Shown here: positions 3,423 through 26,132 of the stretch, one piece after another
Layout: each line of letters begins with the position of its first letter
Numbering within the stretch: the stretch's first letter is position 1
From: Rhodopirellula sp. SM50
GTDB lineage: Bacteria; Planctomycetota; Planctomycetia; Pirellulales; Pirellulaceae
Assembly (NCBI RefSeq): GCF_002289565.1
Contig: NZ_NTFY01000002.1
Span: forward strand, 43,413-107,412
Length of the DNA: 64,000 nucleotides
Reading direction: 5' to 3'
Program-made: the position numbers and the translations under genes
The notes under the pieces: model-generated
Told to the model about the DNA's origin: nothing
Databases searched by the model: none
Seen by the model: only the letters and a program-made list of their open reading frames with translations

Positions 3423-3998
3423 CTACGCCCGTTCGGCTTGCTCATGCATGATCGTCAGCAGCCGATCGATCATCGTGCTCTCCTTGTGAGAAACCTTGCC
3501 CACTCCCAGATGCCCGCCGGACGCTTTGGCAACCGTGATCATTTGCTTCTCGGTCAAATGGATCAATCGATTCGCGGCGTTGCGTGACATCTTTTTCAGA
3601 ATCCCGTGCGTGTACCGTTTCCAAGCATCGATGCCCAATCCCGGCGGCTGTTTTTGCAACCACGTTTCCAGCACCAGCCATGCGGTGGAGTCTTCGCGAA
3701 TCCCCAGCGTGGCGGCCTGCGACTGAATCACCTCGCGTTCTTCCGAGTCGGCGTGGTCTTCGGCCCACGCGACCAACACCAGCGGGATGAATCGCAGGCA
3801 GATCAATTCGTCGGCAGTGATCCCCAACTTGGAAAGCTCGTCGATCAATTGGGGGTCTTCGACACCGGTGCTGCGAACCAATGTGGCGCGCGACGCCTCC
3901 GAGCCGGCTTCGGCGTGGAGTCGCTGGACGATCCTGGCCTCCAACTCGGCGAAGTAGTGGGCCGCTTGTGACGTCGTGGTCGCTGGCTTGTCACTCAT
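3423..3998 (-). CDS. TerB-like helical-domain protein, 191 aa
   Basis: I chose the ATG at 3998 (MSDKPATTTSQ) because residues encoded further upstream look non-coding; the frame itself extends to 4337. The protein is all helical and soluble. Its middle (about residues 60-100: LIC-RFIPLVLVAWAEDHADSEEREVIQSQA) matches the look of TerB/DjlA-type domains, where an acidic D/E-rich turn follows a hydrophobic helix and binds metal. The C-terminus (GKVSHKESTMIDRLL) is charged. The role is unknown; TerB-like proteins are often membrane-associated stress or metal sensors. It precedes divergently the universal stress protein pair at 4355, fitting a stress context, but that link is inference. Confidence 0.6.
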   Translation of the reverse strand: MSDKPATTTSQAAHYFAELEARIVQRLHAEAGSEASRATLVRSTGVEDPQLIDELSKLGITADELICLRFIPLVLVAWAEDHADSEEREVIQSQAATLGIREDSTAWLVLETWLQKQPPGLGIDAWKRYTHGILKKMSRNAANRLIHLTEKQMITVAKASGGHLGVGKVSHKESTMIDRLLTIMHEQAERA

Positions 3999-23523: not shown

Positions 23524-23813
23524 AGGTGGGAACGTTGAACGTTTGGAGGGGCGGTGGGCATCATTAGTATACCCGAAACACAAGTCGACTCCCGAATCCC
23601 GGACCGCACAAAATTCCGCCCGCCGGAATCGCGCCGCTCCGCAGGCCGCCGTCCCCCGAAGCCGGTCCCCCGAAGCCGGTCGCCCGTCAGCCGCCCGTCC
23701 CCTCCCCCTTCTGCCAATCCGCTTCGAGTCGGCGTGTCACTGGATTCAAATCACAGCCAGAATCAGTCCCGAGCCCACCCACGTCCGCGCCCCCCAATCG
23801 ACCTCAACCACCC

Positions 23814-23918
23814 GGGGACACGGCACCAAGCGACACGGGGACACGGCACCAAGTCACACAACTACACAGCGACACGGGGACACGGCACCAAGTCACACAA
23901 CTACACGGGGACAGAGCA
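23814..23918 (+). repeat. REP array, forward orientation (family C), four copies
   Basis: GGGGACACGGCACCAAG occurs at 23814-23830, 23837-23853 and 23876-23892, with a diverged copy (GGGGACAGAGCA) at 23907. Between copies lie short variants of CGACAC and TCACACAACTACAC. The same word occurs in reverse complement downstream of the transposase at 25240-25600 and again forward at 26103-26132. Confidence 0.92.
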
Positions 23919-24032
23919 TTTCGATTCAATCCAAAGCTATCAAACTTGAAAAATTGTCTCTGATCTGAGCTGAAATTTGGTGCAGCGAAGGTTGACTGAT
24001 GGATCGGTTTGCGTTGCAATGGCAGGTCGTGG

Positions 24033-24057
24033 GAGTCGCACGGAGCGACTCGTTTTT
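24033..24057 (+). terminator. Hairpin followed by T-run, terminator-like
   Basis: GAGTCGC (24033-24039) pairs perfectly with GCGACTC (24045-24051) across a 5-base loop. A G and five T residues follow. The form is that of a Rho-independent terminator on the plus strand, but there is no plus-strand gene upstream, so it may instead be part of another repeat family. Confidence 0.45.
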
Positions 24058-24132
24058 GGGCTACGCAATTTGAAGAAGATGCACTTCAAACCGTAGCAAC
24101 GTCTAGAAACGAGTCTCTTTGATGAGGATGCG

Positions 24133-25239
24133 ATGTCACGTTCCAACCGCGGCGACAAGATTGACCCTCGCGAGGTCCAAATCGTTCACACCATCAGTCG
24201 CACCACACGGGCTTGCCGGTTATTCGGCGACGATCCGCTGACCGGCAAAAACTGCGACCATCGCAAGGGTTGGATTGAAGCGTTGATCGAGCATTTCGCT
24301 GGCCAATTTGCCATCGACGTTCTGGCGTATTCGGTCCTCTCCAGTCATCACCATCAGATGCTTCGTTCGCGCCCCGACATCGTCCAGACTTGGAACGACA
24401 CCGAAGTGGCACGACGCTGGCTGATGATTTGCCCCAAACGCACAGACGATCGCGGCAACCCCTTGCCGCCGTCGGAGTCCGAACTCAATACCATCCGAAA
24501 TTGTCCGATCCGGCTTGAGCAGATACGTCTTCGGCTTAGTGATGTTTCCTGGTGGATGCGTCTCATGAACCAACGCGTTGCCCAGCGAGCCAATCGGGAA
24601 GATGGCTCCGGCGGCCGATTCTTCGAAGACCGCTTCAAGGGGATTCCGGTGATTGATGATGAGTCCGTGTTGGCTTGTGCCGTCTACGTGGATTTGAATT
24701 GGATTCGAGCTTGCATGGCCGAAACGTTGGAGCTGAGCGATCACACGTCGGCTCAGCGTCGAATCGAAGCGATCACGGCGGAAACGCAAGCCCCGGCGTC
24801 TAACCCTACCTCGGCACCTGACGACCCGTCGGAGGCCGCGGACAGGTGTGTCCGGCCGCTTGCAGATTCGTTTCTTGCGCCGGTTGATCTGAATGAAGCG
24901 ATTGAGTTGCCCGGCCCCCAACCGAGCCCATGTGATACACGCTGCAGCGACAAGGGGTTCCTACCGATCAGTGCTGCAGAATACCTCGAGCTACTTGACT
25001 GGTCGGCGCGACAATCGGCGGCCGGCAAACCCGGACGCACCCCTGACAATCTCCCGCCAATTCTAATTCGGCTCGGTTTATCGCCGACAGTCTGGCTGGA
25101 ACTTGTGGCCAACTTTGATGATCTGTTTACCACAATGGCCGGATTACCGGAGAACATCGATCAGCGACGTGGCAAACAAACCGGTCGCCGGTTTCACGTC
25201 CAGAAGCGGACACGTGAGCTGTTCGCACAAGCGGCCTAG
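24133..25239 (+). CDS. REP-associated tyrosine transposase (Y1/HUH type), 368 aa
   Basis: The HUH motif is SSHHHQML (His72-His74), and the RAYT signature is GGRFFEDRFKGIPVIDDESVLACAVYVDLNWIRACMA. The Tyr at 185 lies in the YVDLNWIRA helix, the position of the catalytic tyrosine in RAYT proteins. A ~60-residue insertion separates HUH from the WWMRLMNQRVAQRANRE block, and a ~150-residue C-terminal extension is unlike short RAYTs (~150-230 aa). It is flanked by inverted arrays of one repeat word, the arrangement called a REPtron. The predicted activity is single-strand DNA cleavage and rejoining at the REP sequences. No terminal transposon ends are seen. Confidence 0.88.
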   Translation: MSRSNRGDKIDPREVQIVHTISRTTRACRLFGDDPLTGKNCDHRKGWIEALIEHFAGQFAIDVLAYSVLSSHHHQMLRSRPDIVQTWNDTEVARRWLMICPKRTDDRGNPLPPSESELNTIRNCPIRLEQIRLRLSDVSWWMRLMNQRVAQRANREDGSGGRFFEDRFKGIPVIDDESVLACAVYVDLNWIRACMAETLELSDHTSAQRRIEAITAETQAPASNPTSAPDDPSEAADRCVRPLADSFLAPVDLNEAIELPGPQPSPCDTRCSDKGFLPISAAEYLELLDWSARQSAAGKPGRTPDNLPPILIRLGLSPTVWLELVANFDDLFTTMAGLPENIDQRRGKQTGRRFHVQKRTRELFAQAA

Positions 25240-25457
25240 ATTGAACAAGCTCCATCGATCTGGTTTGTTCTTGCATCAATGGCTTCGCAAGATCGCGGCG
25301 TGATCGCTGCGGTGATGAAGTGTCTCGGTATGCGGAACCGCCGACGTAGGCAGTACGACGTCGCCTGCCGTGTTGACGTCGGATCGAAAACTGCGGCTGA
25401 CAATCCCGCGCCGCAGCAAGTGCCGCAACGATCGAATCTCTCCGGTGAAGAATGTGC

Positions 25458-25600
25458 GCCGTGTCCCCGAACGTCGTGTCGTGGAGAATGGATGCCGTGT
25501 CCCCGATCATTGGATTGGTGCCGTGTCCCCGAGCTTGGGGTTGATGCCGTGTCCCTGGGCGTTGCTGATGCCGTGTCCCCGGGGGTTGTGTCCCTGGGGG
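25458..25600 (-). repeat. REP array, reverse orientation (family C), five to six copies
   Basis: The reverse complement word (T)GCCGTGTCCCC occurs at 25458-25468, 25493-25504, 25519-25530, 25545-25556 (with one change) and 25569-25580, plus a partial copy near 25587. The spacing is about 25-35 bases. The orientation is opposite to the array upstream of the transposase, so the gene is bracketed by inverted arrays. The gap 25240-25702 contains nothing else that I can support. Confidence 0.92.
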
Positions 25601-25702
25601 TTGTTGGGGGCGGGCGTTTTTTGCTTTCCCGGCTGGTAGACGTTAGACTCGGGCGGTTTAGACCTGCGATTTTCTTTTTCTTTTCAACGGAAGGGCCGAT
25701 TG

Positions 25703-26080
25703 ATGGGCGTTCGATTCAGTGAAGTCGACTTGGCGACTCGAAACGATAGCAACGTGATTCACTTGCATGTCAGCGGCACGATGAACCACGAAGATTACGA
25801 AATCTTCGGGCCCGACATCGAGCAGGTCATTCAAAAACATGGCAAGATTCGCGTGCTGCTGGAATTGGATGACTTCCACGGCTGGACGGCTCGAGCGCTG
25901 TGGGATGACATCAAGTTCGACATCCAGCACTTTCGCGACATCGAGCGAATCGCCATGGTCGGTGACAGCACTTGGGAAAAGTGGATGGCCATTTTCTGCA
26001 AACCCTTCACCGCCGCCACCATCAAGTACTTTGACGCCAGCGACATCGATGCCGCTTGGGATTGGATCTCCGAGAAATAA
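25703..26080 (+). CDS. SpoIIAA-like (STAS-related) protein, 125 aa
   Basis: I chose the ATG at 25703 with GGAAGGG upstream; the TTG just before is less likely. The protein matches the SpoIIAA-like family: IHLHVSGTMNHEDYEIFGPDIEQVIQKHGKIRVLLELDDFHGWTARALWDDIKFDIQHF, then RIAMVGDSTWEKWM and the terminal DAAWDWI. These small cytoplasmic proteins have a STAS-like fold. Family members are found alone in many bacteria, with unclear lipid- or protein-binding roles. It lies between the reverse REP array and a third REP pair, so it is embedded in the repeat region but does not itself look mobile. Confidence 0.88.
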   Translation: MGVRFSEVDLATRNDSNVIHLHVSGTMNHEDYEIFGPDIEQVIQKHGKIRVLLELDDFHGWTARALWDDIKFDIQHFRDIERIAMVGDSTWEKWMAIFCKPFTAATIKYFDASDIDAAWDWISEK

Positions 26081-26102
26081 ACTGCCCCCAAGAGTCCCAC
26101 CC

Positions 26103-26132
26103 GGGGACACGGCACACCCGGGGACACGGCAC
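26103..26132 (+). repeat. Two further forward REP words (family C)
   Basis: GGGGACACGGCAC occurs at 26103-26115 and 26120-26132 in direct orientation, 17 bases apart, just after the SpoIIAA-like stop. The word matches the arrays on both sides of the transposase. Confidence 0.9.

Follow-up and report, generated by a model that had tools for sequence, protein, structure and literature searches.

Locus and transposase

The window analysed here is a stretch of 64,000 nucleotides from Rhodopirellula sp. SM50 (contig NZ_NTFY01000002.1), a Stieleria-like planctomycete with a genome of 9.8 Mb in 146 contigs. Between positions 23814 and 26132 the window carries a gene for a transposase with HUH and tyrosine (Tyr) motifs, which is framed by copies of a 12-13-bp word. 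The features of this locus are as follows:

23814..23826, + strand: left word 1, GGGGACACGGCAC, exact; its head points away from the gene
23837..23849, + strand: left word 2, GGGGACACGGCAC, exact
23876..23888, + strand: left word 3, GGGGACACGGCAC, exact
23907..23919, + strand: innermost left word, GGGGACAGAGCAT, divergent, 226 bp before the ATG
24133..25239, + strand: HUH/Tyr transposase gene, 368 aa; HUH codons 24346-24354, Tyr185 codon 24685-24687
25456..25468, - strand: right word 1, GGGGACACGGCGC, differs at one of the last two bases
25492..25504, - strand: right word 2, GGGGACACGGCAT, differs at one of the last two bases
25518..25530, - strand: right word 3, GGGGACACGGCAC, the only exact 13-mer among the right words
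25544..25556, - strand: right word 4, AGGGACACGGCAT, begins AGGG
25568..25580, - strand: right word 5, GGGGACACGGCAT, differs at one of the last two bases
25588..25606, - strand: partial sixth right word, remnant GTGTCCCTGGG...
26103..26132, + strand: third cluster, two exact GGGGACACGGCAC at 26103 and 26120, 17 bp apart

As the first-pass annotation had described, inverted word arrays bracket the gene, with forward copies on the left, five reverse copies and a partial sixth on the right, and two forward copies after a SpoIIAA-like gene (PF11964), which lies between the right words and the third cluster. Two arms of 17 nt each (23813-23829 and 25515-25531) are 100% complementary. The exact 13-mer GGGGACACGGCAC has eight copies in the whole genome, six of them within the 2.3-kb locus, and 0 copies of the word read backwards were found in the same genome, so the copies at the locus are not due to chance. 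When up to two mismatches were allowed, 284 copies were counted compared to 256 for the backward word, which is little signal and weighs against an easy enrichment. The degenerate branch word GGGGACANGGCAC therefore replaced this count as the genome-wide measure. With a modest 13 copies versus 0 for its backward form, it shows that related words lie elsewhere in the genome.

The same element was found at the same site in G004, G007 and G009, and the number of words and the spacers vary between them. At this site, G004 has seven words to the left, arranged in a unit of 23 bp whose spacer resembles the sequence just outside the array. The third cluster is not present at the corresponding place in G004 and G007, and no word occurs in the 31 bp visible after the neighbouring gene in G009. 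Eight of nine window-branch loci have their innermost word at a distance of 213-226 bp from the ATG.

The window protein carries the HUH motif at residues 72-74 and the tyrosine at residue 185, resulting in a spacing of 111, and shares 93% identity with a S. magnilauensis protein. Ratios of nonsynonymous to synonymous substitution rates (dN/dS) of 0.12, 0.17 and 0.12 compared to G004, G007 and G009, respectively, indicate purifying selection on the gene. A TnpA-REP fold was predicted for the protein, which bears out its initial description as a RAYT-type transposase. At the cut-offs of Pfam and NCBIfam the protein was unmatched, and a search with the whole protein gave no Pfam domain. Among the aligned relatives, 38 of 62 matched Y1_Tnp and 56 of 62 matched REP_Tyr_transpos (E <= 0.01). 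A sequence search of the PDB yielded weak matches only (ISDra2 transposase, E 0.075). Of the 16 sequences in alignment A1, 12 show the motif YVDLNP if I/V and E/D changes are allowed.

Word versions and transposase branches

Four further homologues of the window transposase were found in the same genome. One, with an identity of 63%, sits among GGGGACAGACCC, two with 38-39% identity are bracketed by GGTGCCACCCACC, and the remaining one showed no clear word in its flanks. The suggestion that paralogues go with other words, for which GGGGTCAGG had been given as an example, is thus reflected by GGGGACAGACCC and GGTGCCACCCACC at the examined paralogues. All 14 Stieleria genomes searched contain the gene, with 79 matches in total.

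For a comparison across loci, the upstream flank of one gene was searched for an 11-mer that also occurs in the reversed flanks downstream of others, since little common descent is expected between such flanks besides the terminal word. Starting from 145 loci with a located gene, 118 were unique with adequate flanks and a protein of at least 300 aa, and the removal of 18 orthologues or twins left 100 loci. Below 40% protein identity, 287 of 5870 ordered pairs (4.9%) shared an inverted 11-mer, compared to 4.4% in direct orientation. This amount increased to 8.2% (196/2394; direct 5.9%) at 40-50% identity, 16% (126/780; direct 8.1%) at 50-60%, 48% (291/606; direct 6.6%) at 60-70%, 66% (110/166; direct 13.3%) at 70-85% and 69% (58/84; direct 7.1%) above 85%. 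The corresponding Mantel r was 0.44 for the inverted and 0.09 for the direct orientation, and 0 of 2000 permutations reached either value.

The whole-genome totals, which take in the copies beside genes, mostly point in the same direction. The genomes that have a window-branch gene in the tree contain, on both strands, 13 (G000), 26 (G004), 36 (G005), 38 (G006), 23 (G007), 18 (G009) and 44 (G010) copies of GGGGACANGGCAC. The seven Stieleria genomes without this branch contain 1, 1, 1, 3, 2, 1 and 6, and the backward form occurs 0-2 times per genome in all 14. The first-pass annotation had regarded a word equally common in genomes without the transposase as evidence against its proposal; the word class is rarer where the branch is missing. 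Similarly, GGGGACAGACCC reached 92 copies in G000, 175 in G004, 90 in G005, 84 in G006, 246 in G007 and 83 in G009, all of which carry the C81 branch (in G009 as deduced from a partial copy and from L044, its apparent twin in the tree), and 0-9 copies in seven genomes outside this set. For GGGGACAGAGCA, 138 copies were determined in G008, 51 in G003, 32 in G013 and 27 in G012, compared to 0-5 in all others.

Ten alignment columns are constant within three branches and differ between them. Seven of these (63, 73, 75, 170, 172, 183 and 184) are near the HUH and Tyr motifs in sequence and are candidate word-reading positions, with the limit that branch-specific columns mirror phylogeny as much as specificity.

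Two other places in the own genome were noted. A transposase-free cluster (L031, C6:26022-26454) comprises the window-branch words GGGGACATGGCAC and GGGGACAGGGCAC plus five GGGGACAGACCC, and therefore holds words of two branches at one site. In L034 (C68:31500-39000), duplicated GGGGACACGTCAC and GGGGACACGATT words at 3761, 3777, 4128 and 4144 lie to one side of a different, class-1-like Y1 transposase gene, the motif of which is YIRNQFEHH.

Orientation of the words

Words were counted as outward when their heads point away from the gene and as inward when they point towards it, with orthologues kept. Outward words prevail in the window branch (68 outward, 10 inward), G012 (12/1), the AGC branch (47/2) and G013 (26/0), and the second subfamily, with the word GGTGCCA, showed 96 outward and 2 inward. 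In 37 other planctomycete loci, GGGGACA was found 53 times outward and 7 times inward, compared to a total of 10 for its backward form. Among 39 more distant relatives, mostly proteobacterial, GGACACCCA occurred 63 times outward and twice inward, spread over 23 loci, and no backward form was seen in these loci. Outward words are therefore present in much of the wider family.

Dispersed arrays and inverted pairs

Pairs of the GGGGACA head on the same strand, 4-34 bases apart, were found 1036 times in the 14 genomes, compared to 34 times for the backward pattern. In 20 fetched array loci and 12 clusters, the words often stand in tandem runs of one orientation with locus-specific spacers, the commonest steps being 17-23 bp. 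A survey of the order covered 146 genomes, 15 of them with the gene at E <= 1e-20. The median number of tandem pairs was 12 in gene-bearing and 1 in gene-free genomes, and at least 10 pairs were present in 10 of 15 gene-bearing versus 9 of 131 gene-free genomes (Mann-Whitney p 3.5e-6, uncorrected for phylogeny). Orphan words lay inside predicted open reading frames (ORFs) in 239 cases and outside in 149 at an ORF coverage of 0.74, a simple count that includes spurious ORFs from tandem repeats.

The enzyme could have extended these arrays by nicking one word repeatedly and transferring the strand there, which would copy the word together with its flank. A serious rival for array growth alone, compatible with the rest of the observations, is that the element brought one end word and that replication slippage or unequal crossing-over multiplied word and flank independently of the enzyme. 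The tandem order, the locus-specific spacers and the regular steps would fit, and array length and spacer vary between orthologous sites as slippage would give. It is rather unlikely nonetheless, since the tandem pairs are concentrated on the GGGGACA word, many of their sites are gene-free, and outward inverted pairs at preferred spacings are left unexplained.

The first-pass annotation had asked whether the words pair head-to-head, and such pairs were indeed found, with 28 outward compared to 11 inward pairs of window-branch words. Their spacings, measured between pattern starts, recur at 22-23, 42, 47, 68-69, 75 and 89-91. Two single words tested gave no better folds than shuffled sequences (z 0.29 and 0.72); four tested inverted pairs fold in silico with z from -3.05 to -5.04. 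A core of GCTAGC, GCAAGC or GCTTGC is contained in 18 of 23 loops of at least 20 nt, compared to a shuffled mean of 0.97 and to 1 of 10 control spacers; this core was picked after the loops had been seen, and some loops are related copies. GCTAGC or GCAAGC is common to, e.g., L254:714, L256:1017, L258:705 and L263:768. Near gene-bearing copies the core was found in five of nine loci at varying positions, the window copy not being among them.

Gene copies at different sites

Near-identical copies of the gene occur at different sites in related genomes. G005 contains five copies with 97.5-98.8% DNA identity to L201, four of them with identical proteins, and G004 contains two copies with 99.2% identity. 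The five copies in G013 show 81-95% identity to L171. Four of these start with a word located 92-94 bp ahead of the ATG, and their mean identity drops from 79% inside the outermost word to 30% over the 60 bp beyond it.

For the near-identical copies of the second subfamily (L201-L203 in G005, L191/L192 in G004), homology breaks off at the stop codon in part of the comparisons, and words extend further downstream in unrelated DNA. Two loci of the own genome, L027 (C81) and L028 (C35), match one G004 copy in the left flank and another in the right flank, which results either from recombination between element copies or from misassembly in the 146-contig genome. Where the own genome has its C3 copy, the gene was matched in 0 of 8 fetched orthologous stretches; G004 has a single solo word there, no gene, and other DNA on the right side.

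Such a solo word could also mean that the words are older host repeats, e.g. sites of a host DNA-binding protein, beside which the transposases insert. Words away from genes are common, and the right-hand words of the G005 and G004 copies lie in DNA that the copies do not share. Against this, different branches sit among different words within one genome, the tail spectrum shifts with the resident branch across the 14 genomes, and the distance from the innermost word to the ATG is kept (213-226 bp in eight of nine window-branch loci, 92-94 bp in four of five G013 copies). Such a target preference is accordingly improbable.

Interpretation

Altogether, we assume with a probability of roughly three quarters that the locus is a HUH/Tyr transposase gene framed by outward end words, which the enzyme likely nicks and rejoins as single strands and would have spread in this way. 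Since several branches go with their own word version, the enzyme likely recognises and spreads this word. It would nick and rejoin single strands at its own word, by which the word would be copied elsewhere as tandem arrays and inverted pairs, and at times it may move its own gene. The tail following the shared GGGGACA head could be the recognition code read by the enzyme, and the inverted word pair could be the mobile unit, by analogy with the REPIN for RAYT. Cleavage, specificity and the mode of array growth are what we infer from this arrangement.

Several observations weigh against this interpretation. The right ends are not fixed: homology ends 1-9 bp past the stop codon in two of four L201 comparisons (in the other two it continues for 209-238 bp) and 5 bp past it in the two G004 copies. 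For the own C3 copy no clean insertion junction or target duplication was obtained; no junction is readable there because the right side in G004 carries other DNA. Furthermore, the two ends of one locus share an 11-mer in only 50 of the 100 loci (16 in direct orientation), the words of the C81 branch show hardly any preferred orientation (56 outward, 48 inward), and those of G002 show 2 outward and 6 inward. G012 contains 75 GGGGACAGACCC without a C81-branch gene, its own left words being GGGGACAGACCT. In G001 and G011 the genes go with AGC-type words, and these genomes contain only 3 and 2 exact GGGGACAGAGCA; their flank words are GAGCC, GAGCA and TAGCA variants. Many tandem pairs were counted in the gene-free genomes G085 (128, control 95), G046 (105), G155 (36) and G029 (24), and gene-bearing G141 combines 77 pairs with a high control of 31. 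In G046 the pairs are mostly GGGGACAGTCCCC among the places listed, with a conserved spacer, and probably belong to another repeat family. Inverted pairs of all GGGGACA words in the examined loci amount to only 39 outward compared to 26 inward, and the late choice of the loop core also counts here. Finally, the window protein has YVDLNW instead of the usual Y---NP and SHHH instead of NHxH.

A further-reaching version is tentative and closer to doubtful than to even. Here, an HUH family reads a linear, hairpin-free word via a protein-encoded tail code and writes it genome-wide in a REPIN-like manner, following a rule unlike that of GTAG; tandem arrays would take up part of every target site, and the pairs would be self-complementary. 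A classical REPtron, i.e. a RAYT with palindromic GTAG-headed repetitive extragenic palindromes (REPs), would share the TnpA-REP fold, the inverted flanking repeats and the dispersed copies, and is very improbable, as the head is GGGG and not GTAG; because the word has neither a GT[AG]G head nor a fold of its own, the initial designation as a REPtron does not hold in the strict sense.

Repeat-spreading HUH enzymes are known mainly via GTAG-headed palindromes. If the present proteins are of subclass 2.3, a branch described as repeat-free carries its own words, and these vary along with the protein. Since words are assigned to several branches within a single bacterial genus, the recognition rule can be tested directly through in-vitro swaps of words and enzymes, and these branches form a natural series for the coevolution of transposases and repeats. 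Arrays with target-derived spacers may, in addition, record past nicking events.

Comparison with known systems

The statements below refer to passages of the cited papers. TIRtrons comprise a Y1 transposase gene (TIRYT) flanked by inverted repeats sharing GGGGWSAS (Di Nocera et al. 2013, PMC3733652), so the GGGG head, first taken as new, had already been described at transposase ends. Some TIRYT repeat families are dispersed as dimers or clusters, differing terminal inverted repeats are possible within one genome, and Planctomycetes are named in these passages for GTAG and CGTC repeats only (PMC3733652). The window element resembles this type, with GGGGWSAS inverted repeats around a Y1 gene, here GGGGACAC, which are mostly outward in the window branch. 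It differs in its long, subclass-2.3-like proteins, in a word tail that goes with the protein branch, and in the tandem arrays and hairpin pairs described here; of the published TIRYTs, 20 of 26 belong to subclass 2.1 (PMC6006769). TIRYTs of subclass 2.1 carry one of three C-terminal HTH domains; in the window protein, searched as a whole, Pfam gave no domain.

For TnpA-Y1 subclass 2.3, a median length of 325 aa, a median HUH-Tyr spacing of 110, the Y-motif YVDLN(P), a C-terminal extension and several divergent copies per genome are given (Quentin et al. 2018, PMC6006769). The window protein is similar in its 368 aa, spacing of 111, Y-motif core YVDLN, C-terminal extension and divergent copies in the own genome. 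The length and long spacing noted in the first-pass annotation are both listed for this subclass. Differences are NW for NP and SHHH for NHYH, the assignment being made by description and not by subclass profiles. REP-like sequences are reported as not found in subclass 2.3 (PMC6006769), whereas outward words flank many relatives here. If these are 2.3 proteins, the outward words in the wider family contradict this description, which then needs correction.

With IS200/IS605 elements (IS608, ISDra2) the element shares the HUH/Tyr catalytic core and the several near-identical copies in some genomes. Regarding the subterminal hairpins of these elements, the two end words do not fold, the rest of the ends not having been searched systematically. 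The matches listed in a literature search for the word strings were, by title, not on bacterial repeats, which does not prove absence from print.

The likeness to REPtrons consists of the TnpA-REP fold and of cognate repeats that occur next to the gene as well as dispersed (Bertels and Rainey 2011, PMC3116915; PMC8266576), the dispersed ones being modest in number in the own genome (13) and amounting to 18-44 in six related genomes. Inverted cognate doublets with hairpins resemble REPINs, here by anatomy only, and ordered tandem clusters taking in flanking sequence resemble REP clusters (PMC3116915, PMC8266576). In contrast to REPtrons, the unit word is linear, comprises 12-13 bp and has neither GTAG head nor palindrome. 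By anatomy, the element is most likely a TIRtron with a transposase close to TnpA-Y1 subclass 2.3; it would work like a REPtron on linear words, and the branch-specific tail is considered its new part.
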